NCBI RefSeq assembly: GCF_001612845.1
Contig: NZ_BDBF01000004.1
Span: 81,905-145,904, forward strand
DNA from: Nocardia elegans NBRC 108235
GTDB taxonomy: Bacteria; Actinomycetota; Actinomycetes; Mycobacteriales; Mycobacteriaceae
Reading direction: 5' to 3'
Length of the DNA: 64,000 bases
Part shown: piece after piece, positions 43,761 through 62,217 of the stretch
Numbering within the stretch: position 1 is the first letter of the stretch
Layout of the letters: each line of letters starts with the position of its first letter
Notes under the pieces: model-generated
Databases searched by the model: none
What the model was told of the DNA's origin: nothing
The model's input: only the letters and a program-made list of their open reading frames with translations
Position numbers and translations under genes: made by a program

Positions 43761-43880
43761 GTGCACGGTTGCCGCACTCGGCGCACTGACCACGGTTGTA
43801 CCGACCACGGTTCGCGCACCGAACAGCCCGGCCGTCGGCGCGACCGGGTGCGGATGTCCCCATCACAGGAGTGTCGATGA
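43761..43880 (+). CDS. Candidate 39-aa upstream ORF coupled to sfnG
   Basis: GTG at 43761 has GGAGG at 8-nt spacing. The frame runs to TGA 43878-43880, overlapping the sfnG ATG (ATGA). The peptide is Arg-rich with three Cys and ends ECR-stop. The design resembles cysteine-responsive upstream ORFs that couple translation to sulfur genes in mycobacteria, but lacks a consecutive Cys run. Translation is unproven. Confidence 0.4.
   Translation: MHGCRTRRTDHGCTDHGSRTEQPGRRRDRVRMSPSQECR
43788..43812 (+). repeat. Two direct repeats upstream of sfnG
   Basis: GACCACGGTT occurs at 43788-43797 and 43803-43812, a 15-bp period, 65-90 bp before the sfnG start. It is a candidate regulator-binding site, or a product of the upstream ORF's repeated TDHG codons. 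Confidence 0.45.
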
Positions 43881-44995
43881 CCACCGAGAAGATCGCCGAG
43901 CAGACCCGGTTCGCCTACTGGGTGCCCAACGTCAGCGGCGGGCTGGTGACCAGCACGATCGATCAGCGCACCGGCTGGGATTTCGAATACAACAAGAAGC
44001 TGGCGCGCACGGCCGAGAACAACGGCTTCGACTACGCCCTCTCGCAGGTGCGCTACACAGCCTCCTACGGCGCGGAATACCAGCACGAGTCGACGTCGTT
44101 CAGCCTCGCGCTGCTGGGCGCAACCGAGCGGCTGAAGGTGATCGCGGCCGTGCACCCGGGGCTGTGGCATCCGGCGGTACTGGCGAAATTCGGGGTCACC
44201 GCCGACCATCTGTCCGGCGGACGCTTCGCGATCAATGTCGTATCCGGTTGGTTCGGCGGGGAGTTCACCGCGCTCGGGGAGCCGTGGCTCGAGCACGACG
44301 AGCGGTACCGGCGCAGCGCCGAATTCCTCGAGGTCATCCGCAAGCTGTGGACCGAGGACGAGGTGAACTACGCCGGCGACTTCTACCGGATTCGAGACCT
44401 GACACTGAAGCCCAAGCCGCTCAACACGGCGGAGCGGCCGAATCCCGAGCTCTTCCAGGGCGGTAACTCGACCGCCGCGCGGCGCAACGGCGGCCGCTAT
44501 GCCGACTGGTACTTCTCCAACGGCAAGGATTTCGACGGCGTCACCGAACAGATCGAGGACGTCCGTGCGGTCGCGCGCGAGCACAACCGTGAGGTCAAGT
44601 TCGGCCTGAACGGGTTCATCATCGCGCGCGACACCGAGGCCGAGGCCCGCGACACCCTGCGCGAGATCATCGAGAAGGCCAACCGGCCCGCCGTGGAGGG
44701 TTTCCGCGACGCGGTGCAGCAGGCCGGCGCTTCCACGCGCGACGGCAAGGGCATGTGGGCGGATTCCACCTACGAAGATCTGGTCCAGTACAACGACGGC
44801 TTCCGCACCCAGCTGATCGGCACTCCCGAGCAGATCGCCGAGCGGATCGTCGCCTACCGCGACCTGGGGGTCGACCTCATCCTCGCGGGCTTCCTGCACT
44901 TCCAGGAGGAGATCGAGTACTTCGGCGCCAAGGTGCTGCCGCTGGTCCGGGAGTTGGAGGCCCAGCGCGAACCCGAATTGGCGGCGAGTCGATGA
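43877..44995 (+). CDS. sfnG: Dimethylsulfone monooxygenase-type LLM protein (SfnG-like)
   Basis: 372 aa, ATG at 43877 after CAGGAG. Luciferase-like barrel with SfnG-type blocks: RFAYWVPNVSGGLVTSTIDQRT, YALSQVRYTASYGAEYQHES, INVVSGWFGGEFTALGEPWLEHDERY and ELFQGGNSTAARRNGGRYADWYFSNG. SfnG oxidises dimethylsulfone to methanesulfinate and formaldehyde using FMNH2. Translational coupling (ATGA) to the SfnB-like gene and a nearby flavin reductase complete a dimethylsulfone module; an SsuD-like enzyme is encoded 9 kb upstream. Confidence 0.87.
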   Translation: MTTEKIAEQTRFAYWVPNVSGGLVTSTIDQRTGWDFEYNKKLARTAENNGFDYALSQVRYTASYGAEYQHESTSFSLALLGATERLKVIAAVHPGLWHPAVLAKFGVTADHLSGGRFAINVVSGWFGGEFTALGEPWLEHDERYRRSAEFLEVIRKLWTEDEVNYAGDFYRIRDLTLKPKPLNTAERPNPELFQGGNSTAARRNGGRYADWYFSNGKDFDGVTEQIEDVRAVAREHNREVKFGLNGFIIARDTEAEARDTLREIIEKANRPAVEGFRDAVQQAGASTRDGKGMWADSTYEDLVQYNDGFRTQLIGTPEQIAERIVAYRDLGVDLILAGFLHFQEEIEYFGAKVLPLVRELEAQREPELAASR

Positions 44996-46233
44996 CTGCC
45001 GTCGCCGCCGCGCGGATCATCTCCGCCGCCCAGGCTCACGAGACGGCGGTACGTCTGGCCGCGCAATTCGCGGTCGATGCGGCCCGGCGCGACAGTGCCC
45101 GCGAGTTGCCGCATCGGGAACTGGACCAGCTCTCGGCCAGTGGGCTGCTGGCCGTCACCGTGCCGGCCGAATTCGGTGGTGCGGATCTGGCGCCCGCCCA
45201 GGTGGCGGAGGTGTTCCGGCTGCTGGCGGCGGCGGACCCGAATATCGCGCAGATTCCGCACAGCCATTTCGTCTATCTGAATCTGTTGCGACTGGCGGGA
45301 ACTCGGGCTCAGCGGGAACGCTATTTCGGCCGGGTGCTCGCCGGCGCGCGGATAGCGAACGCGCAATCCGAGCGCAGCAGCGCGACCATCGCCGAAATCG
45401 GCACCACACTGCGTCCCGCCGAAGGCGGGTTGAGAATCGACGGAACCAAATTCTATTGTACGGGTTCGCTTTTCGCGGATCTGCTGGCCGTACTGACCCG
45501 TCTGGACGATCCCGACGGGCGCAGCGGCCTGGACCCCGGCGAATACATCGCCTTCCTGCCCGCCGATACCACGGGTGTGACGATCGTCGACGACTGGAAC
45601 GGCATCGGCCAGCGCACGACGGGTAGCGGGACCGTGACACTCGAGGCGGTGCGGGTCACGGGTGACCAACTGATCCCACGGGCGGCGGCGGTGCGTGCCC
45701 CCACCGGCTACGGAGCCTTCGCGCAGTTGCTGCACGTCGCGATCGACGTGGGCATCGCCCGTGGCGCGCTGGACGCGGCCGCGGAGTTCGTGCGCACCGA
45801 GAGCCGCCCGTGGTTCGAGGCCGGGGTCGATCGGGCGAGTGAGGATCCGCTGGTGATCCAGCGCATCGGCGAGTTGGCGGTCACCGTGGCCGCCGCCGAG
45901 GCGACCTTCGAGGTGGCCGGGCGAGCCGTGGATCATGTTGTCGCACAGACGAACAGCGGCGAACTCGACACCGATACGGCCACCGCGCTCGCGGCGGAGG
46001 CGTCGATCGCGGTCGCTACCGCCAAGATCACCTCCGACCGCGCCGCGAACGAGGTATCGGCCGCACTGTTCGAGGTGAGCGGAACCCGCAGTGCCGCAGC
46101 CGATCTGGGTTTGGACCGGTTCTGGCGCAACGCCCGCACGCATACGCTGCACGATCCGGTGCGGTGGAAGTACCAGCACATCGGGCGTGCGGTGCTCAAC
46201 GGCACCGCACCCCCGTTGCACGGCGTCATCTGA
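44992..46233 (+). CDS. sfnB: SfnB family sulfur-acquisition oxidoreductase
   Basis: 413 aa; start overlaps the sfnG stop by 4 bp. Acyl-CoA dehydrogenase-like fold: LLAVTVPAEFGGADLAPAQVAEVFRLL, FAQSERSSATI-like middle (ANAQSERSS), IDGTKFYCTGSLFADLLAVL, and C-terminal DRFWRNARTHTLHDPVRWKYQHIG. SfnB is required with SfnG for dimethylsulfone use in pseudomonads, but its reaction is not settled. It is a distant paralogue of the DszC-like protein at 39556. Confidence 0.85.
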   Translation: MTAVAAARIISAAQAHETAVRLAAQFAVDAARRDSARELPHRELDQLSASGLLAVTVPAEFGGADLAPAQVAEVFRLLAAADPNIAQIPHSHFVYLNLLRLAGTRAQRERYFGRVLAGARIANAQSERSSATIAEIGTTLRPAEGGLRIDGTKFYCTGSLFADLLAVLTRLDDPDGRSGLDPGEYIAFLPADTTGVTIVDDWNGIGQRTTGSGTVTLEAVRVTGDQLIPRAAAVRAPTGYGAFAQLLHVAIDVGIARGALDAAAEFVRTESRPWFEAGVDRASEDPLVIQRIGELAVTVAAAEATFEVAGRAVDHVVAQTNSGELDTDTATALAAEASIAVATAKITSDRAANEVSAALFEVSGTRSAAADLGLDRFWRNARTHTLHDPVRWKYQHIGRAVLNGTAPPLHGVI

Positions 46234-53964: not shown

Positions 53965-55185
53965 TCAGTTCGGGGTCGGTGCCCAGTCGCCGGGGAAGGC
54001 TCGGTAGGTGCCCAGCGGCAACCGGGCGTCGTAGACCATGTCGCCGGTCGGGGTGAATTCCGAAATATGCGGTGCCATACCCCAGCCCACCAGGGTGTTG
54101 CCGTTGGGGAGCGGCTGGGCGTCGCCCATCGCGAAGGCGGTCAGGCCGTCGGGGTGGGTTTGGTTGCGCACCAATGTGGCTCGGTGATTGTCGAGGTCCA
54201 GGTGGATCCACTGCACACTCGACACACCCAGTGTCTCGAAGCCGCTGGAGTTGTTGTTGAACAGGCGCAGAGTATTCGGGTCGGCGAATTCCGCATCGTG
54301 CTGGAACGCGAATTCGACGCCGGGGCCGAGATCGAAAGTCGAATGCCTGCCGCCGAGTTGCCACTTGATCGCACCGGTGTGGACGTCGACGTCGTAGACG
54401 GTGGAGGTATCGCGCATCGAGATCACCAGATCGCCGTCGGGATCCAGCGCGATCGAATTCATGTGGTACGGGTCGTAGGTGTCGCTGCCGGGAAGTTTGC
54501 CGGGAGTGGTGGTGTCGGTGAGCGGGACGTGCTCGGCGGCGCTCCAGCGCAACAGAACTCGCTTGCTCGCCACGTCGACCACCGTGGCGACGGTGTCGTA
54601 CATCTTGCCGTTCTTCGGGCCGCCGATCGCGGACAGATCGGCGTCCACCTCCTGGTACGACGTGATCAGCGCTCGGCCGTCGGGAGTCAGGCGGAATTCG
54701 TGCACATCGCTGGGAGCGCCACCGGCATCGAGGGTTTCGATGACGTTGCCGTGTTCGTCGGCGATGTAGTCGGCACCCGAGCCGTGCCCGCCGACGGTGC
54801 CGCCCTGCCACCACGTCAGCACCCGTTTGCCCTGGTACGTCTGGGTGCGGAAGTTCGAGACGTCCTGTCCGGTGGGAGGCGCGTAGCGCCAGACCTCATG
54901 CCCGGCCTTGTCCACCACGATATTCGCCGGAGCGGTAGCCGGAACGGCCGACAGCGCCTTACCCGCCCCCGGAACCAGCGCCGCCGCACTGACACCGTTG
55001 CTGTAGTAGATGTAGCCGGGCGCCGCGGCCGGGGTGTTCACATCCACGGTGTATTCGGGTGCGCCTACCGGGAAGCTCGGTAGCGGAGCCGCGTGCGCCG
55101 TGAACGGGATGGATGCGGCGCCTACCCCGACCGATGCTGCGATCAGCGTGGCGGTGTGGCGAAGGTTCCTGGCAATCCTGGCCAT
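53965..55185 (-). CDS. Secreted arylsulfotransferase-family (ASST) protein
   Basis: 406 aa. The signal peptide ends near residue 32 (FTAHA-AP). Six-bladed propeller-type repeats have ASST-family blocks: VDKAGHEVWRYAPPTG, SDVHEFRLTPDGRALITSYQE, DPYHMNSIALDPDGDLVISMRDTSTVYDV, FAFQHDAEFADP and ALPNGNTLVGWG-like (QPLPNGNTLVGWG). The His residues in DVHEF, PYHMN and FQHDAEF are candidates for the sulfated active-site His. The family moves sulfate between phenolic esters outside the cell. It lies 115 bp downstream of the AprA-like operon on the same strand. Confidence 0.8.
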   Translation of the reverse strand: MARIARNLRHTATLIAASVGVGAASIPFTAHAAPLPSFPVGAPEYTVDVNTPAAAPGYIYYSNGVSAAALVPGAGKALSAVPATAPANIVVDKAGHEVWRYAPPTGQDVSNFRTQTYQGKRVLTWWQGGTVGGHGSGADYIADEHGNVIETLDAGGAPSDVHEFRLTPDGRALITSYQEVDADLSAIGGPKNGKMYDTVATVVDVASKRVLLRWSAAEHVPLTDTTTPGKLPGSDTYDPYHMNSIALDPDGDLVISMRDTSTVYDVDVHTGAIKWQLGGRHSTFDLGPGVEFAFQHDAEFADPNTLRLFNNNSSGFETLGVSSVQWIHLDLDNHRATLVRNQTHPDGLTAFAMGDAQPLPNGNTLVGWGMAPHISEFTPTGDMVYDARLPLGTYRAFPGDWAPTPN

Positions 55186-55300: not shown

Positions 55301-58003
55301 TCACGCCGCCTCCAGGGTGCGGCGGGCGTAGGCGCGGACGTCGGCGTCGGTATCCGCGAGTACCACCCGGAGGGCGGTTCGGACGGCCGCGTGGTCGGGC
55401 CAATGCGAGAGGGTCAGGACGGCGGCTTTGCGGACGTCCGGATGAGGGTCGGTCAGGGCGGATTCCAGCGCCTCGGACGCGGCGTGCGGGCCCAGTCCGG
55501 CCCAGCCGCGGGCGCCGCCTTCGCGGACCTGCCATGCCGAATCCTCCAGCGCCGCGGTCAGAATCGCCGCATCGGACGAATCGCCGAGTCGCGCCAGGGC
55601 GGCGAGGGCGGCGGCGCGGACCAGGGGATCGCGGTCGCCGACCAGCGCGCGGATCGTGTCGGCGCCGCCGGCGCCGACCTCGGCCAGGCCGCGGGCGACG
55701 GCCACCCGGACCTCCCGGTTCTCGTCGAATGCGGCGGCGGTGAGGGCCGACCAGTCGTCGAGGGAGACCAGGGCGCGCACACCTTCGATGCGCACGCGGT
55801 GGTCGCTGTCCACCACGGCCTTGCCGAACAGGTCCGCCGAGCCGCGGCGCTGGGCGCGCAGCAGATCCACCACCGCGGCTCGCACCAGCGGGTCGGGCGA
55901 TTCGGCGTGTGCGGTCAATTGCTCTGCTGGCGGCAGGATTTCGATCAGCTCGCGCAGGCCGGAGACGGCCGCGGCGCGAACGCCGGCGTCGTGGTCGCCG
56001 AGCGCGGCGATCAGGGCATCGGCGAATCCGTCCGGAGTGCCCTCGGTCAGCACCGAGAGCGCGGTGGCTCGCACCCGGGGGTCGCTGTCGTCCAGATAGT
56101 CACGCAGCTCGGCGACGGCCGGGCCGTCCAGCCCGAGCAGGAGCGCGATCCGGGGTGCGGCGGAGTCGTCGGCGGGGACGGGGATCGTGATTCCGGGACG
56201 GGGTGCGGCGCCGGTCGCCGATGCTCCGGTCCGGGGTGGGCCGGCGATCAGTTCCGGCTGCGCCACCGCGACCGGCTCGAGCTCGGCGCGCGGCAGATCC
56301 TCCCATTCCGGCACCGGCACGAAATACGGGGCGACCGGGCGCTTCAGGAATTCCATCTCGCCGTCGGCGCCCTTGCGCAGGTTCAGGTGGTAGCGCCACT
56401 CCTCGTCGTTGCGTTCGGGCAGGTCGGCGCGGTCGTGGTACAGACCCCACCGCGATTCGGTGCGGGTCAGCGAGGACCGGGCCGCCATCTCGGCGCAGTC
56501 GCGGATGAAATCGACCTCGGCGCACCGCATCAGCTGGTGCGGGGTGTCCGCGCCCATCTCGGCGATCTCCTGCCGCATCCGCTCGAAGGTCTCCACCGCC
56601 AGCGACAGTTTGGTCTGCGTCTTCGGCGGTGCGACGTAGTCGTTGACGAAACGACGCAACTTGTATTCGACCTGCTGCTGCGGCGGGCCGTCGGGATGGC
56701 GCAGCGGACGGTAGATCAGCTCGTGCGCCGCGGCCAGCTGATCGTCCGGAAGAGTCTGCGGCGCAGGCACTTCCGTAAGCGTCGACGACGCGTGCTCGCC
56801 CGCCAGATCCCCGTAGACGAACGCGCCGATCATGTAGTTGTGCGGTACGCACGCGAGATCGCCCGCCGCGTACAACCCCGGGGCCGTGGTGCGCGCGTGT
56901 TCGTCCACCCACACTCCGGAGGCGGAATGCCCACTGCACAAACCGATTTCGGAGATGTGCATCTCGATGTCGTGGGTGCGGTAGTCGTGGCCGCGGTTGG
57001 CGTGGAAGGTGCCCCGGGTGGGCCGCTCGGTGGTGTGCAGGATGCCCTCGAGCGCGTCGAGCGTCTCCTCGGGCAGGTGCGAGACCTTCAGATAGATGGG
57101 CCCGCGCGCGGACTCGATCTCCCGCTTCACCTCCGCCATCATCTGCCCGGACCAGTAGTCCGAGTCGACGAAACGCTCACCGGCGGCGTTCACCTGATAT
57201 CCGCCGAACGGGTTCGCGACATAGGCGCAGGCCGGCCCGTTGTAGTCCTTGATCAGCGGATTGATCTGGAAGCATTCGATACCCGACAACTCCGCGCCGG
57301 CGTGATACGCCATCGCGTACCCGTCGCCGGCGTTGGTCGGATTCTCGTAGGTGCCGTACAGATAACCCGACGCCGGCAGCCCGAGCCGGCCGCACGGTCC
57401 GGTCGCCAGGATCACCGCCTTCGCGCCGACCGCCACGAACTCCCCGGTCCGGGTGTTGAGCGCGGCCGCACCGACCGCGCGACCGCCGTCGGTGAGGACC
57501 CGCACCGGCATGAGCCGGTTCTCGATCCGGATCCGTTCCCGCATCTTGCGTTGCCGCAGGACGCGGTAGAGCGCCTTCTTGACGTCCTTGCCCTCCGGCA
57601 TCGGCAGCACATAGGAGCCCGAGCGGTGCACGCGGCGCACGGCGTACTCGCCGTAGGCGTCCTTCTCGAACTTCACGCCGTAGCGTTCCAGCCGCTGCAC
57701 CATGGCGAAACCGCGGGTCGCGGTCTGATACACCGTGCGCTGGTCGACGATTCCGTCGTTCGCGCGGGTGATCTCGGCGACGTAGTTCTCCGGCTCCGCC
57801 TTACCCGGGATGACGGCGTTGTTCACGCCGTCCATGCCCATGGCCAGCGCGCCGGAGTGACGCACGTGCGCCTTCTCCAGCAGCAGCACGTTCGCGCCGT
57901 TCTCCGCGGCGGTGAGCGCGGCCATGGTGCCGGCGGTTCCGCCGCCGATCACCAGCACATCGCAGTCCAGGCGCACGGTGTCGGACAGCTCGGGAATCTT
58001 CAT
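55301..58003 (-). CDS. AprA-like FAD flavoprotein fused to C-terminal HEAT repeats
   Basis: 900 aa. Residues 1 to about 600 are a fumarate-reductase/AprA-type flavoprotein. They show an FAD motif GGGTAG (20-25), the AprA-like block HVRHSGALAMGMDGVNN (47-63), LYGTYENPTNAGDGYAMAYHAGAEL, RPTRGTFHANRG and a second FAD-contact region GLYAAGDLACVPHNYMIGAF. Residues about 620-900 contain nine short HEAT-like repeats of the form DxDPxVRxAALxAL. AprA carries the APS-reducing FAD in APS reductase; the matching ferredoxin is encoded in the same operon. The fusion to HEAT repeats is unusual. Substrate unknown. Confidence 0.83.
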   Translation of the reverse strand: MKIPELSDTVRLDCDVLVIGGGTAGTMAALTAAENGANVLLLEKAHVRHSGALAMGMDGVNNAVIPGKAEPENYVAEITRANDGIVDQRTVYQTATRGFAMVQRLERYGVKFEKDAYGEYAVRRVHRSGSYVLPMPEGKDVKKALYRVLRQRKMRERIRIENRLMPVRVLTDGGRAVGAAALNTRTGEFVAVGAKAVILATGPCGRLGLPASGYLYGTYENPTNAGDGYAMAYHAGAELSGIECFQINPLIKDYNGPACAYVANPFGGYQVNAAGERFVDSDYWSGQMMAEVKREIESARGPIYLKVSHLPEETLDALEGILHTTERPTRGTFHANRGHDYRTHDIEMHISEIGLCSGHSASGVWVDEHARTTAPGLYAAGDLACVPHNYMIGAFVYGDLAGEHASSTLTEVPAPQTLPDDQLAAAHELIYRPLRHPDGPPQQQVEYKLRRFVNDYVAPPKTQTKLSLAVETFERMRQEIAEMGADTPHQLMRCAEVDFIRDCAEMAARSSLTRTESRWGLYHDRADLPERNDEEWRYHLNLRKGADGEMEFLKRPVAPYFVPVPEWEDLPRAELEPVAVAQPELIAGPPRTGASATGAAPRPGITIPVPADDSAAPRIALLLGLDGPAVAELRDYLDDSDPRVRATALSVLTEGTPDGFADALIAALGDHDAGVRAAAVSGLRELIEILPPAEQLTAHAESPDPLVRAAVVDLLRAQRRGSADLFGKAVVDSDHRVRIEGVRALVSLDDWSALTAAAFDENREVRVAVARGLAEVGAGGADTIRALVGDRDPLVRAAALAALARLGDSSDAAILTAALEDSAWQVREGGARGWAGLGPHAASEALESALTDPHPDVRKAAVLTLSHWPDHAAVRTALRVVLADTDADVRAYARRTLEAA

Positions 58004-58038
58004 CAGCGCACTCCAGGGAGGTGAATAGTCGGGGCGGC

Positions 58039-58794
58039 TCAGGCAGCGGCCGACCGCGGCGAACGATCGAGAGCGGCAAGGATTTCGGCACGCTCGGCAC
58101 TGCGATCGACGTCCTTGCCGCGCGGGTTCGGCACCGCGATCAGCGAATGCAGGGCCCGGTCGGTGCCGCCGAGCACCGCGACCCGGTCCCCGATAGTCAG
58201 CGCCTCGTCCACGTCGTGGGTGACGAAGACGACCGTGGTGGGATGGGTCTGCCAGGTTTGAATCAGAAGTCGTTGCATGGTGATTCGCGTCGGAGTGTCC
58301 AGAGCACCGAACGGCTCGTCCATCAGTACCGCGCGCGGCGCCCCGGCCAGCCCGCGCGCGAGTTGTACGCGCTGGCGCATACCGCCCGACAGGCTCTTGG
58401 GCAGATAGTCGCCGAAACCGGTGAGCCCGACCTCCTCGATCCAGCGCTCGGCCTGCGCTCGACGGGTAGCCCGCGGCTCCCCGCGCAGCTTCAACGCCAG
58501 TTCGATATTGGAACGCACAGTGCGCCAGGGCAGCAGCGCATTGTCCTGAAACACCATCGCCCGATCGCGGGAGGGCCCGGTGATCTTGTCGCCGTCCGCG
58601 AGCGCGTGTCCGGAGCGGGGCGGCAGCAGGCCGGCCAGGGCGCGCAGCACCGTGGACTTCCCGCAGCCGGACGGTCCGGTCAGGACGAGGATCTCGCCCG
58701 CGCGGATATCGAGTGTCAGCCCGTCCAGCACAGGTGCGCCACCGTAGCGAAGGTCCACCTGATCGAGTCGCAAGCCCATTGCGGTCGAGCTCAT
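58039..58794 (-). CDS. ABC transporter ATPase, TauB/SsuB type
   Basis: 251 aa; its ATG overlaps the permease stop (ATGA). Walker A GPSGCGKST, Q-loop VFQDNALLPW, signature LSGGMRQR, Walker B RAVLMDEPFGALD and H-loop VFVTHDVDEAL, all intact. The NALLPW Q-loop and overall size are typical of the nitrate/sulfonate/taurine importer subfamily. It powers the permease and binding protein encoded upstream in the same operon. Confidence 0.92.
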   Translation of the reverse strand: MSSTAMGLRLDQVDLRYGGAPVLDGLTLDIRAGEILVLTGPSGCGKSTVLRALAGLLPPRSGHALADGDKITGPSRDRAMVFQDNALLPWRTVRSNIELALKLRGEPRATRRAQAERWIEEVGLTGFGDYLPKSLSGGMRQRVQLARGLAGAPRAVLMDEPFGALDTPTRITMQRLLIQTWQTHPTTVVFVTHDVDEALTIGDRVAVLGGTDRALHSLIAVPNPRGKDVDRSAERAEILAALDRSPRSAAA

Positions 58795-59672
58795 TTCGTC
58801 ACCTCTCCGGCACGTGGCAGCCAGCGGGTGGCGCGCCGTCCCAGCAATTCGATGGCCGCCGAGGTGGCGAAGCCCAGCACGCCGATGGTGATGATGCCGA
58901 CGAACACACCGGGATAGTCGACGATCGTGTATGCCTGCCAGGTGCGGTAGCCGACGCCGAGGCGCCCGGAGATCATTTCGGCCGAAACCACACAGATCCA
59001 CGCCACGCCGATCCCGACCGACAGCCCGCTGAACACGCCCGGCAGGCTGCCCGGCAACACCACCCGCACCAGGACGTCCCAGCGGTTACCGCCCAGCGTG
59101 CGCACCGATTCCTCCCAGATGGTCGGCAGTGCCCGCACCGCGTGCCGGGTGCTTACCATGATCGGGAAGTAGGCGGCGAGGAAGGTGATGAACACGATGC
59201 CGGCCTCGTCGGTGGGAAACAGCAGGATGGCCACCGGCACGATCGCGACCGCCGGAATCGGGCGGGCCAACTCGGTCAGCGGTCCGAAGATGTCGGCGAA
59301 CCAGCGTGAACGCCCCGGCGCCACCCCGGTCGCGACACCGATCACCGCGGCCAGCCCGAAGCCGCTGAGAATGCGGATCAATGATTGGCCGAGGTCCAGC
59401 CAGAAGGTGTCGGTCTGCACCTGCACCCGCAGCCGGTGCAGGATCTGGGTGACCGTCGGCAGCGTATCGAAGCGGACCCACAGCCGAATATGGTTGGCGG
59501 TCAGCACTTGCCAGGCGATCAGCGCGACGACGATGGAGGCCACCCGAACCAGCCGCGAGCCCCACAACCCTGCGGTGCCGTGGTGTCCGGCGGCCGCCGC
59601 GGGCGCAGTGGTTTCCCGTGCCGTGGTGATGTCCGCAGCGCTGGCGTCGACCGGGATGGTGGTGGCGCTCAC
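58791..59672 (-). CDS. ABC transporter permease, TauC/SsuC type
   Basis: 293 aa; the GTG start overlaps the binding-protein stop. About six TM helices; the EAA-like loop is STRHAVRALPTIWEESVRTLGG, and RVVLPGSLPGVFSGLSVGIGVAW follows, as in sulfonate/taurine permeases. The first 40 residues are Ala/Thr-rich and precede the first helix (VASIVVALIAWQVLTAN). It forms the inner-membrane channel with the ATPase encoded next. Confidence 0.9.
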   Translation of the reverse strand: MSATTIPVDASAADITTARETTAPAAAAGHHGTAGLWGSRLVRVASIVVALIAWQVLTANHIRLWVRFDTLPTVTQILHRLRVQVQTDTFWLDLGQSLIRILSGFGLAAVIGVATGVAPGRSRWFADIFGPLTELARPIPAVAIVPVAILLFPTDEAGIVFITFLAAYFPIMVSTRHAVRALPTIWEESVRTLGGNRWDVLVRVVLPGSLPGVFSGLSVGIGVAWICVVSAEMISGRLGVGYRTWQAYTIVDYPGVFVGIITIGVLGFATSAAIELLGRRATRWLPRAGEVTK

Positions 59673-61096
59673 GACCGCACCTCACCGATGGCCTGGTCGT
59701 AACTCACCGCGACCGCACCGGGGTGGCGGGCCTGATACCGCTGCACCGCGCCGGGGGTGATGAAGGGCAGGTAGGTATCGCCCTCGCGCACCCACTGCGC
59801 CTTGTCCGCGAACCAGCGAGTGCCGAGTTCCGCATCCGGCACGTAGGCGGCGCGGATCTTCTTCCCCTGCGCCCGTGCGGCTTTCACCGCGCGCAGCAGG
59901 TCGATGGGGTTGCCCGCGGGCTGTGCGGCAGCCTGGCCGTCGAACCAGATCTCGCCGGCGAGGGCCGCATCGGAGACCGATTTACCGGTGCTCGGATCGG
60001 TGCCCGTGATCGGCGCGGGATTGGCGAAGTTCGCCACGGCCGCATCGTAATTCGCACCGCGTTCGGCGAAGGCCTTCCGCAACGGGGCATCGTCGACGAA
60101 TGTGTCGATATCGAAATCGGCGAAGTCGCCGATCGACTTCAGATACGGAACATCCCCCTTGAACGCCTGGACGAGCTGCGGCTTCAGGGGCGTGTCGAAC
60201 GAGGTTCCCCCGGGTCCGTTGTAGAGGTAGACGACCTCCGCCGGCAGTCCGGAGTTGTCAGCGACCAGCTGCGCGGCTTCGAGCGGTTTCGCGTGCAGGA
60301 AATCGGTGGCGTCAAGTTGCGCCTGCAGGAATGCATCGAGCACCTCGGGATGGGATTTCGAATAATCACGACGTGCCACCACACCGTGGAATGTCGGCAC
60401 GTTCAACTCGGCGCCATCGTAGAGCAGCTTGGCCTTGTCCTGGAAAACGAGCAGGCCGGGCCAAGCCACGAATTGCGAAAGCGCCTGCACCTGACCGGAT
60501 TCCAATGCGGACGCGCCGATCTGCGGCTGCTGGTTGAGCACGTCCACACCGTGCGCGGGGTCGATGTTCGCGCGGCTCAGGGCCTGGCGCAGAGTGCCGT
60601 CACCGGCGGAGCCGACGCTCGCGGACACCTTCTTGCCCGCCAGATCCGACAGCGACGTCGCCGTCGAATTCGGCGCGGTGACAACCATATTCAGGGAACC
60701 CCGTGGCTGGTAACCGGTGATCGAGACCAACTCGGTGGCCGAACGCTCACTGGCGGAGGTTCGGGAACCGTTGATCAGCAGGGGGTAATCGCCCATCGAA
60801 CCGATATCGATCTTCTCCGCGATCATCTGCGCGGTGATCGGCGCGCCGGTGTCGTAGTCCTGCCATTCGACCTGATATTTCGGCCCGCCCTTCGCGGTCA
60901 GGTCGTTCAGGCGCTTCTCCAGGAAACCCCTGGCGCGCAGCAGCGTTCCGGCGGTGACGGTATTGATGGTCTTGGACTGATAGCCGACGACCACCCGGAC
61001 GGTGTCCCCGGATCCGGTCTGCTCGAGCGAGCATCCGGCGGCCAGGGTGGCGATCAGGGCGGCGGCGGCCAGTATGCGGGCACGACGGTACTTCAT
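59669..61096 (-). CDS. SsuA/TauA-like substrate-binding lipoprotein with extra C-terminal domain
   Basis: 475 aa, ATG at 61096 after GAGGAAAA. Lipobox LAAGC, lipidated C22. Residues 30 to about 340 form a NitT/TauT-type binding protein (RVVVGYQSKTINTVTAGTLL; AEKIDIGSMGDYPLLING; DLAGKKVSASVGSAGDGTL). The family is usually about 320-350 aa; here about 95 further residues (381-475) contain GEIWFDGQ, AAYVPDAELGTRWFADKAQWV and FITPGAVQRYQARHPGAVAVSY. That order resembles a NosL-type metal-binding fold, a tentative call. The ligand is probably an organosulfonate or related anion. Confidence 0.82.
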   Translation of the reverse strand: MKYRRARILAAAALIATLAAGCSLEQTGSGDTVRVVVGYQSKTINTVTAGTLLRARGFLEKRLNDLTAKGGPKYQVEWQDYDTGAPITAQMIAEKIDIGSMGDYPLLINGSRTSASERSATELVSITGYQPRGSLNMVVTAPNSTATSLSDLAGKKVSASVGSAGDGTLRQALSRANIDPAHGVDVLNQQPQIGASALESGQVQALSQFVAWPGLLVFQDKAKLLYDGAELNVPTFHGVVARRDYSKSHPEVLDAFLQAQLDATDFLHAKPLEAAQLVADNSGLPAEVVYLYNGPGGTSFDTPLKPQLVQAFKGDVPYLKSIGDFADFDIDTFVDDAPLRKAFAERGANYDAAVANFANPAPITGTDPSTGKSVSDAALAGEIWFDGQAAAQPAGNPIDLLRAVKAARAQGKKIRAAYVPDAELGTRWFADKAQWVREGDTYLPFITPGAVQRYQARHPGAVAVSYDQAIGEVRS

Positions 61097-61151
61097 GGTT
61101 TTTCCTCGAAATCGGGCCGAGGGCGGCCACTGAAAGATTCCGCTGCGCGAT

Positions 61152-61379
61152 TCAGCGCAGCAGATACGGCATATTGACGGTGACGGCGCCGGTGGGACAG
61201 CGCGCCGCGCACGGCCCGCAGTACCAGCACTCGTCGACGTGCATGAACGCCTTGCCGTTGTCCGGATTGATCGCCAGCGAATCGAGCGGGCAGATCTCCA
61301 CACACAGCGTGCACCCCTCGATGCACAGCGATTCGTCGATGGTTACCGGGACATCAGCCCGCTGATTGACCGACGCCAT
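61152..61379 (-). CDS. AprB-like 2x[4Fe-4S] ferredoxin
   Basis: 75 aa. Two cluster motifs: C19-x3-C23-x2-C26-x3-C30-P and C51-x2-C54-x2-C57-x3-C61-P, the second starting ECWYCGPC, close to the CWECYSC region of APS reductase beta subunits. It lacks the long C-terminal tail of true AprB. It should pass electrons to the AprA-like flavoprotein encoded four genes downstream. Its ATG lies inside the end of the GntR gene (26-bp overlap), so the operon begins with the regulator. Confidence 0.86.
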   Translation of the reverse strand: MASVNQRADVPVTIDESLCIEGCTLCVEICPLDSLAINPDNGKAFMHVDECWYCGPCAARCPTGAVTVNMPYLLR

Positions 61380-62217
61380 GGCGGCTCAGCCTCCAATCGT
61401 TGCTTTCCGTGGTGCGAATCAGGCTGTCGCGCAGAGTGATCCGATCGCCACGCATGCGTATGTACTCGAGATCCACCGGTCGCCCGTCGGCGAGATAGGT
61501 GAGACGTTCCAGCAGCAGCAGTGCGCTGCCCTCGGGAGCCTGCAGGGTGGCGGCGCTGTGGATGTCGGCGGTGATGGCCTCCACCGCCAGATCGGCCGAA
61601 CCGAGCGACTGGCCGCTGATCTGTTCGATGAGTCCGAAGATGTCCTCCGACCGCAGATCGCAGTCGAGTACCTTTTCGCCGATGTCCGGGGCCAGATATG
61701 TGTGGTCCAGGCTGAGGGGCAGATCACCCAGGTAGCGCAGCCGCTCCAGGTAGACCGCGGATTCGCCGGGTTCCAGGCCGAGCCGGTTGGCAACCGCGGG
61801 CGGTGGCGTGAGGCGCACCGCCGCGCGCACCTCGTTGCGCACCTCGCCGTGCCCGCGCAGCGTTTCCTTCAGGCCGCGCAGGCTGTCCAGTCCGTGATCG
61901 TATTTGCGTTGCGCCACATAGGTTCCCACTCGCGGGACCCGGCCGATGAGGCCCTCGTCGCGCAGCAGTGCCAGTGCCTCGCGCACCGCGTTGCGGGAGA
62001 CGGCGAATTCCGCGGCGAGTTCGGATTCGGTGGGCAGCGGGTCGGAGCACTGGCCGGTGTGGATCTGCTGGCGCAGCACATCGGCCACCTGCCGGGCCCG
62101 ATCCGCCTTGCGGATGGTGCGGGCGCCGGCGGCGGCCGTCGTCGTCTCCGCCCCGGATGCCGGGTGGTCGGCAGCGGACCCGTGCTGCTGACGCAGGGGT
62201 ACCGGATCGGCTGTCAT
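61354..62217 (-). CDS. GntR/HutC family regulator of the AprBA-like operon
   Basis: 287 aa from the ATG at 62217, with AGGAGG 6 nt upstream; a GTG at 62223 is in frame. A Pro/Ala-rich leader of about 38 residues precedes the GntR winged helix (LPTESELAAEFAVSRNAVREALALLRDEGLIGRVPRVGTYV). The C-terminal UTRA effector domain has LGLEPGESAVYLERLRYLGDLPLSLDHTYL and LLLLERLTYLADGRPVDLEYIRMRGDR. It is the first gene of the operon, so it is probably an autoregulator that senses the imported compound or a metabolite. Confidence 0.9.
   Translation of the reverse strand: MTADPVPLRQQHGSAADHPASGAETTTAAAGARTIRKADRARQVADVLRQQIHTGQCSDPLPTESELAAEFAVSRNAVREALALLRDEGLIGRVPRVGTYVAQRKYDHGLDSLRGLKETLRGHGEVRNEVRAAVRLTPPPAVANRLGLEPGESAVYLERLRYLGDLPLSLDHTYLAPDIGEKVLDCDLRSEDIFGLIEQISGQSLGSADLAVEAITADIHSAATLQAPEGSALLLLERLTYLADGRPVDLEYIRMRGDRITLRDSLIRTTESNDWRLSRHGVGQSAG

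Follow-up and report, generated by a model that had tools for sequence, protein, structure and literature searches.

The window analysed here is a stretch of 64,000 nucleotides from Nocardia elegans NBRC 108235 (contig NZ_BDBF01000004.1, positions 81,905 to 145,904), a host with a genome of 7.5 Mb. Six genes on its minus strand (62217-55301) encode a flavoprotein and a small ferredoxin, which resemble the two subunits of adenosine 5'-phosphosulfate (APS) reductase, AprA and AprB, together with a GntR/UTRA regulator and the three parts of a sulfonate-type ATP-binding cassette (ABC) importer (Table 1). The original prediction, made from the letters alone, had described six genes mostly overlapping or lying less than 60 bp apart, and all of them were indeed present among the open reading frames of the window, with gaps of at most 55 bp. 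The ferredoxin gene overlaps the GntR/UTRA gene (whose ATG at 62217 is preceded by AGGAGG) by 26 bp and is followed, after a gap of 55 bp, by the gene of the substrate-binding protein (SBP); 4-bp overlaps join the SBP gene to the permease gene and the latter to the ATPase gene, and 35 bp separate the ATPase gene from that of the flavoprotein. Domains of all six products were assigned by Pfam and NCBIfam profile scans; those of the ATPase began at 58809, five codons upstream of its start codon, which was checked to be the ATG at 58794.

Table 1. Genes and protein regions of the six-gene cluster (window coordinates).
Feature	Position	Strand	Profile or other assignment
GntR/UTRA transcriptional regulator, cluster gene 1	61354..62217	-	PF00392 + PF07702
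2[4Fe-4S] ferredoxin, 75 aa, AprB-like core, Trp52 in CWYC	61152..61379	-	Fer4 models
Lipoprotein SBP, SsuA/TauA-like, 475 aa, extra C-terminal part	59669..61096	-	
ABC importer permease, SsuC/TauC/NtrB-like	58791..59672	-	BPD_transp_1; NCBIfam matches below equivalog cut-offs
ABC importer ATPase, SsuB/TauB-like, 251 aa	58039..58794	-	ABC_tran
Flavoprotein, whole gene, 900 aa	55301..58003	-	Pfam + NCBIfam
Flavoprotein core, residues 1-570, APS/PAPS-reductase superfamily	56294..58003	-	PF00890 + PF02910, NF010374, 8a8o_A, tree
Flavoprotein HEAT-repeat domain, about residues 615-900	55304..56161	-	PF13646

The flavoprotein is a fusion, in which a flavin adenine dinucleotide (FAD) core (FAD_binding_2, residues 15-386) and a fumarate-reductase C-terminal domain (448-562) extend to about residue 570 and are followed by HEAT repeats (about 630-897), a part that went unmentioned in the original prediction. 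Over residues 1-570 it shares 99% identity with a protein assigned to Nocardia nova. In the structural model (mean predicted local distance difference test score, pLDDT, 77.1; active-site loops below 50) the HEAT part is built of helical repeats, with most 10-residue blocks at pLDDT 85 or higher. The protein belongs to the NCBIfam families NF010374 (PRK13800; 1689.4 vs 1196 bits, residues 1-899) and NF006131 (PRK08275), well above both cut-offs. Both families carry the title "fumarate reductase/succinate dehydrogenase flavoprotein subunit", a function which is unsupported by the active-site motifs of the window protein, and the name is probably a misnomer. The cut-offs of the models for aprA (TIGR02061, 125.6 vs 641.75 bits), succinate dehydrogenase/fumarate reductase (TIGR01812, 153.7 vs 567.3 bits) and L-aspartate oxidase (TIGR00551, 116.8 vs 452.75 bits) were all missed.

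The closest solved structure by sequence is the alpha subunit of the 3'-phosphoadenosine 5'-phosphosulfate (PAPS) reductase of Methanothermococcus thermolithotrophicus (8a8o_A, E-value 1.7e-54), with AprA next. The same structure ranks first in the fold comparison of the model, with fumarate reductases close behind; matches absent from the fold search were given no weight as evidence. A tree of 25 rows, which included 8a8o and three genuine AprAs from Thiobacillus-type genomes, and whose outgroups (SdhA, NadB and another Frd-like protein) all came from the window's own genome, split AprA, 8a8o and the flavoprotein family from SdhA, the Frd-like protein and NadB at 100/100. Within it, AprA and 8a8o were joined at 100/99 and the flavoprotein family at 92/95, the latter being under the program's star threshold; the program output also flagged few outgroups and long branches, and eight family rows and four rows of a second flavoprotein were left out. 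A grouping with fumarate reductases or L-aspartate oxidases, which the original prediction had named as evidence against itself, was therefore not found, as the tree places the family with AprA and PAPS reductase.

We compared the active site with that of A. fulgidus AprA, counting Arg265, Trp234, Gln145 and Lys267-Asp268 from the alignment rows, while for His398 and Asn74 we relied on the numbers, and for most of the compared residues on the roles, that we take to apply to AprA. The active-site Arg (EAVRGEGG) and His (HxxxGG) motifs of SdhA, fumarate reductase and NadB are both absent from the flavoprotein in the alignment. Gln145 of AprA, as well as Lys120, Arg121 and Ser122 of the PAPS loop, are named in an excerpt of PMC10322725. 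In all 61 distinct family members Arg265 is replaced by Leu250, Trp234 by Tyr219 (flanked by Glu220 and Asn221) and Gln145 by Val132, although the column of the last lies inside a gapped loop. The three PAPS-loop residues correspond to Ser130, Tyr131 and Val132 in the window, the Tyr and Val being invariant, and an equally invariant and longer Tyr-Val-Leu-Pro-Met-Pro (VLPMP) loop stands in place of the nucleotide loop; Arg237 of 8a8o is missing as well. On the other hand, Asn61 (AprA Asn74), Lys252-Asp253 (Lys267-Asp268), Glu352 and His359 (His398) are kept in 61/61 members, and His359 and Asn61 align with His and Asn in all four AprA and PAPS reductase rows. Also invariant are Cys244, Gln246, Asn248, Tyr254, Asn255, Cys259, His309, Arg327, Arg330, His334, Arg337, Arg342, Cys356, His388 and Asn389, of which His388 is a His in the three AprAs too, and Gln246 and Asn389 are common to the SdhA and NadB rows. 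On the grounds of the missing motifs and the tree we rejected a fumarate reductase, succinate dehydrogenase or L-aspartate oxidase function, and on those of the replaced Arg265, Trp234 and Gln145, together with the missed aprA cut-off, an APS reductase proper. Judged by its active site, the flavoprotein is therefore a third branch beside AprA rather than an APS or a fumarate reductase.

The ferredoxin has eight Cys residues, corresponding to two [4Fe-4S] sites, which along with Trp52 are invariant in nine of nine aligned sequences. Trp52 aligns with the CWEC Trp of AprB in three of three genuine AprBs, and a role in electron transfer has been proposed for Trp42 of PAPS reductase (PMC10322725, excerpt). 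The ferredoxin misses the aprB model cut-off (29.8 vs 135.65 bits) and, at 75 aa, lacks the C-terminal tail of the solved AprB chains (150 and 166 aa). The earlier view of the pair as AprAB-like thus holds, given the tree, the nearest structure and the aligned Trp, and the pair shares with AprAB its composition of an FAD alpha subunit and a 2[4Fe-4S] beta subunit; it differs, besides the residues and loop described above, in the tail-less ferredoxin, the HEAT partner and the presence of an importer in the cluster. The Methanothermococcus enzyme is likewise an AprAB-like pair in assimilatory use, and in the excerpt of PMC10322725 neither an importer nor a HEAT protein is described with it. Could the window pair then simply be an AprAB-type APS reductase or sulfite oxidase working on APS or on AMP and sulfite, with the importer supplying a precursor of sulfite? 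Its nearest kin and the retained His398, Asn74 and ferredoxin Trp equivalents are in line with such an idea. However, we regard it as very improbable, as the three replaced residues, the different nucleotide loop, the low score with the aprA model and the short ferredoxin all argue against it, and one Thiobacillus genome encodes, in addition to this flavoprotein, two AprAs that pass the aprA cut-off. Of the APS-site check put forward in the original prediction, the part concerning the His and the ferredoxin Trp therefore stood, the Arg turned out to be Leu throughout, and the suggested handling of APS as such was not upheld.

The importer is of the same type as SsuABC and TauABC. Profile comparison puts TauA and SsuA nearest to its SBP, and the fold comparison puts SsuA there too, the fold being of the SsuA type, but the SBP scores below the SsuA model TIGR01728 (118.1 vs 163.5 bits) and has about 115 extra C-terminal residues; the ATPase similarly lies below the cut-off of the taurine ATPase model (211.8 vs 357 bits). 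A further difference from the SsuABC and TauABC systems with SsuD or TauD is that the enzyme of the cluster is not an oxygenase, whereas a sulfur-gene neighbourhood is common to both in part of the loci. Of 29 relatives of this SBP, 20 matched NosL with E-values of 1 or lower (4.6e-6 at best), the match probably falling within the additional C-terminal residues (window 59672-60019), which would amount to an SBP-NosL fusion. As for regulation, some cyanobacterial loci have, divergent to the flavoprotein operon, a gene for a LysR regulator with a fused domain recognised by the cassette SBP profile (L075, 7665-9677, minus strand; also L068, L069, L071 and L090).

The system is real and conserved. 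As 16 of the 20 other actinobacterial loci fetched share the six genes in the identical order GntR-ferredoxin-SBP-permease-ATPase-flavoprotein, the arrangement is far beyond chance, and the conservation of the gene set, for which a neighbourhood survey had been suggested, was borne out. Among the other four, one (L151) has all parts in a different order and with a separate HEAT protein, two (L149 and L150) have no adjacent permease or ATPase, L149 being also without the SBP, and one (L141) is cut by a contig edge. The HEAT fusion is covered by a full-length NF010374 match in 12 of the 16 same-order loci; the other four (L152-L155) were searched with NF006131 only, and their open frame is long enough for the fusion. 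Members of NF010374 were found in 33 of 298 genomes of the order (E-values up to 1e-100), and an NF006131 match in 12 of 396 genomes in a search of the phylum (up to 1e-120). Pseudomonadota and Cyanobacteriota hold flavoprotein relatives at about 55-62% identity, so that the family recurs across three bacterial phyla. Within the open-access full-text literature, which was the scope searched, the earlier statement that no characterised system has this exact set was uncontradicted.

We then considered 89 loci with a flavoprotein above 600 bits, drawn from plasmid records, genome contigs and the window. The ferredoxin was found in 85 of them (the exceptions being L059, L083, L092 and L101), and in 80, including most loci outside actinobacteria, the HEAT protein has a gene of its own. 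In the remaining nine loci no full-length HEAT gene stands alone: it is fused in the window and L056 and lies in two frames in L055, and L059, L083, L091, L092, L101 and L128 are short stretches. Importer-type matches were less regular (SBP 74, ATPase 67, permease 61), and some of these may belong to neighbouring importers. GntR occurred in 44 loci and DUF971 in 32, neither of them in cyanobacteria, while all 30 loci with Mrp/NBP35 were cyanobacterial. The ferredoxin and HEAT counts therefore define flavoprotein, ferredoxin and HEAT protein as the stable core, to which the importer, the regulator and the Fe-S loader are additions.

Some loci also carry genes for a possible electron supply. An FdxA-type ferredoxin lies inside the cluster in nine loci, and a GltD/FNR-like pyridine-nucleotide (NAD(P)H-type) oxidoreductase of about 1190 aa, resembling NfnAB fusions, in eight. 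Of these eight, four belong to groups of sulfur chemolithotrophs (Acidithiobacillus, Hydrogenophilales, Halothiobacillus and Thiobacillus), and the other four are metagenome bins whose naming stops at Proteobacteria or Burkholderiales. The recurrent neighbour clusters that were scanned, a subset including one with no Pfam match, showed no membrane electron acceptor. Since the oxidoreductase and FdxA are present and no such acceptor was seen, we favour a soluble and reductive reaction, a reverse flow seeming less likely.

The neighbours of the cluster point to sulfur economy. At least one gene from a list comprising YeiH, TauE, SsuD-type, LLM, SfnB, TauD, SrpI, cysteine desulfurase and CysP was present in 48 of 109 loci (a figure without a random-window control), namely in 23 of the 35 loci from cyanobacteria, 20 of the 52 from proteobacteria and other groups, and 5 of the 22 from actinobacteria. 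Recurring genes included those for an SsuD-type monooxygenase (15), TauD (7), a sulfate/thiosulfate-binding protein (7), SfnB (6) and TauE (6), and in the window itself, some 9-11 kb away from the end of the flavoprotein gene, SfnG (dimethylsulfone monooxygenase) and SfnB are encoded (43868-46233, plus strand), each scoring above its cut-off. In cyanobacteria the operon can read flavoprotein-ferredoxin-HEAT-Mrp-YeiH-TauE, with the divergent LysR fusion (L075). YeiH (PF03601) is needed for sulfite resistance in Salmonella (PMC12880088, excerpt); ten PF03601 genes were found in 9 of 15 cyanobacterial genomes searched, and each of the nine flavoprotein loci of these genomes holds one. In Synechococcus, starvation for sulfate raises the expression of the type 2A encapsulin SrpI and its cysteine desulfurase (PMC8049743, excerpt). 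Of the 11 genomes searched for SrpI, eight have a single copy, which in seven of them lies within the flavoprotein locus. As the genomes for both counts were partly picked for showing these genes, the counts describe copy number and linkage, not frequency. The SrpI gene lies in the fetched cassette flank in L102, L107, L109, L110, L114, L117, L119 and L124; in L102, L109, L110 and L114, the four inspected in full, its cysteine desulfurase adjoins it.

It is conceivable that an importer of the nitrate/bicarbonate/sulfonate class takes up an anion without sulfur, and that the enzyme reduces this ligand or a nitrogen compound to supply nitrogen or a cofactor. We consider this unlikely, as the YeiH linkage, single-copy SrpI and TauE neighbours point to sulfite and sulfur, and the best SBP matches are TauA and SsuA. 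Another possibility concerns the oxygenases found at some loci. The known aerobic routes by which aliphatic sulfonates are desulfonated to provide sulfur depend on oxygenases such as SsuD and TauD, and SsuD-, LLM-, SfnB- or TauD-type oxygenases, present in 27 of the 109 loci, could perform this step, so that the flavoprotein/ferredoxin pair might act as a dehydrogenase or reductase on the carbon skeleton of the imported sulfonate or organic anion, with sulfur freed later elsewhere or never. On one hand, a fold common to the fumarate reductase superfamily and the loss of AprA Arg265 would agree with such a role. On the other hand, the Arg and HxxxGG motifs of SdhA and NadB are absent, the tree groups the family with AprA, and no such oxygenase was found in 82 of the 109 fetched stretches (four queries, E-value 1e-20; many stretches are short). 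This explanation seems to us rather unlikely.

We tentatively propose, with somewhat less than even confidence, that the cluster imports a sulfonate-like anion from which the AprAB-derived enzyme removes the sulfo group reductively, as sulfite and without oxygen; we infer substrate, direction and product alike. In this scheme, the lipoprotein SBP with the permease and the ATPase would take up an R-SO3(-) compound intact. NAD(P)H, acting via general or dedicated reductases, would feed the 2[4Fe-4S] ferredoxin, whose conserved Trp may relay electrons to FAD. Reduced FAD might then attack the sulfur, in the manner put forward for APS reductase, so that R-H and sulfite are released; in the pocket, the invariant VLPMP loop, the Tyr/Glu/Asn group and several Arg and His residues would replace the nucleotide-binding residues. 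The sulfite could enter assimilation, or some hosts could export it through YeiH or TauE, and the ligand would be sensed by the GntR/UTRA regulator or, in cyanobacteria, by the LysR-SBP fusion. The HEAT part likely scaffolds the complex, with DUF971 or Mrp/NBP35 as the likely loader of its [4Fe-4S] clusters. A broader reading, namely that aerobes, cyanobacteria and chemolithotrophs host a widespread, unrecognised oxygen-independent desulfonase, an APS-reductase-derived FAD/2[4Fe-4S]/HEAT enzyme which reductively cleaves imported sulfonates to sulfite and is served by a dedicated importer, regulator and Fe-S loader, is doubtful. If true, it would be a bacterial route freeing organic sulfur without oxygen, and a reductive route conserved across three phyla and coupled to an importer would alter the genome-based reading of organic sulfur use. 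It would also provide a function for many proteins now named fumarate reductase, as well as a new substrate class for APS-reductase chemistry.

Several further observations concern the surroundings and the spread of the cassette. An arylsulfotransferase-like gene (53965-55185, minus strand, PF14269) lies 115 bp downstream of the flavoprotein gene; it was considered as a seventh member of the cluster, but among the loci searched it was matched only in the window and its own genome, and is thus treated as a local neighbour. The compact cassette occurs in genera that are easily handled in the laboratory, including Pseudomonas and Rhodococcus, and PP_0205-0211 of P. putida is, we assume, this cassette. 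The PP_0206 "ferredoxin" was upregulated 7.5- to 8.5-fold under zinc (PMC6066579, excerpt). Plasmid pTcM1 of Acidithiobacillus caldus (L054), typed as mobilizable, carries the cassette with the importer not directly attached. Finally, a second, more distant flavoprotein of about 550 aa lies near the cassette in L079, L080, L062 and L115 (for example at 319-2403 in L080, where an HgcB-like ferredoxin is found beside it).

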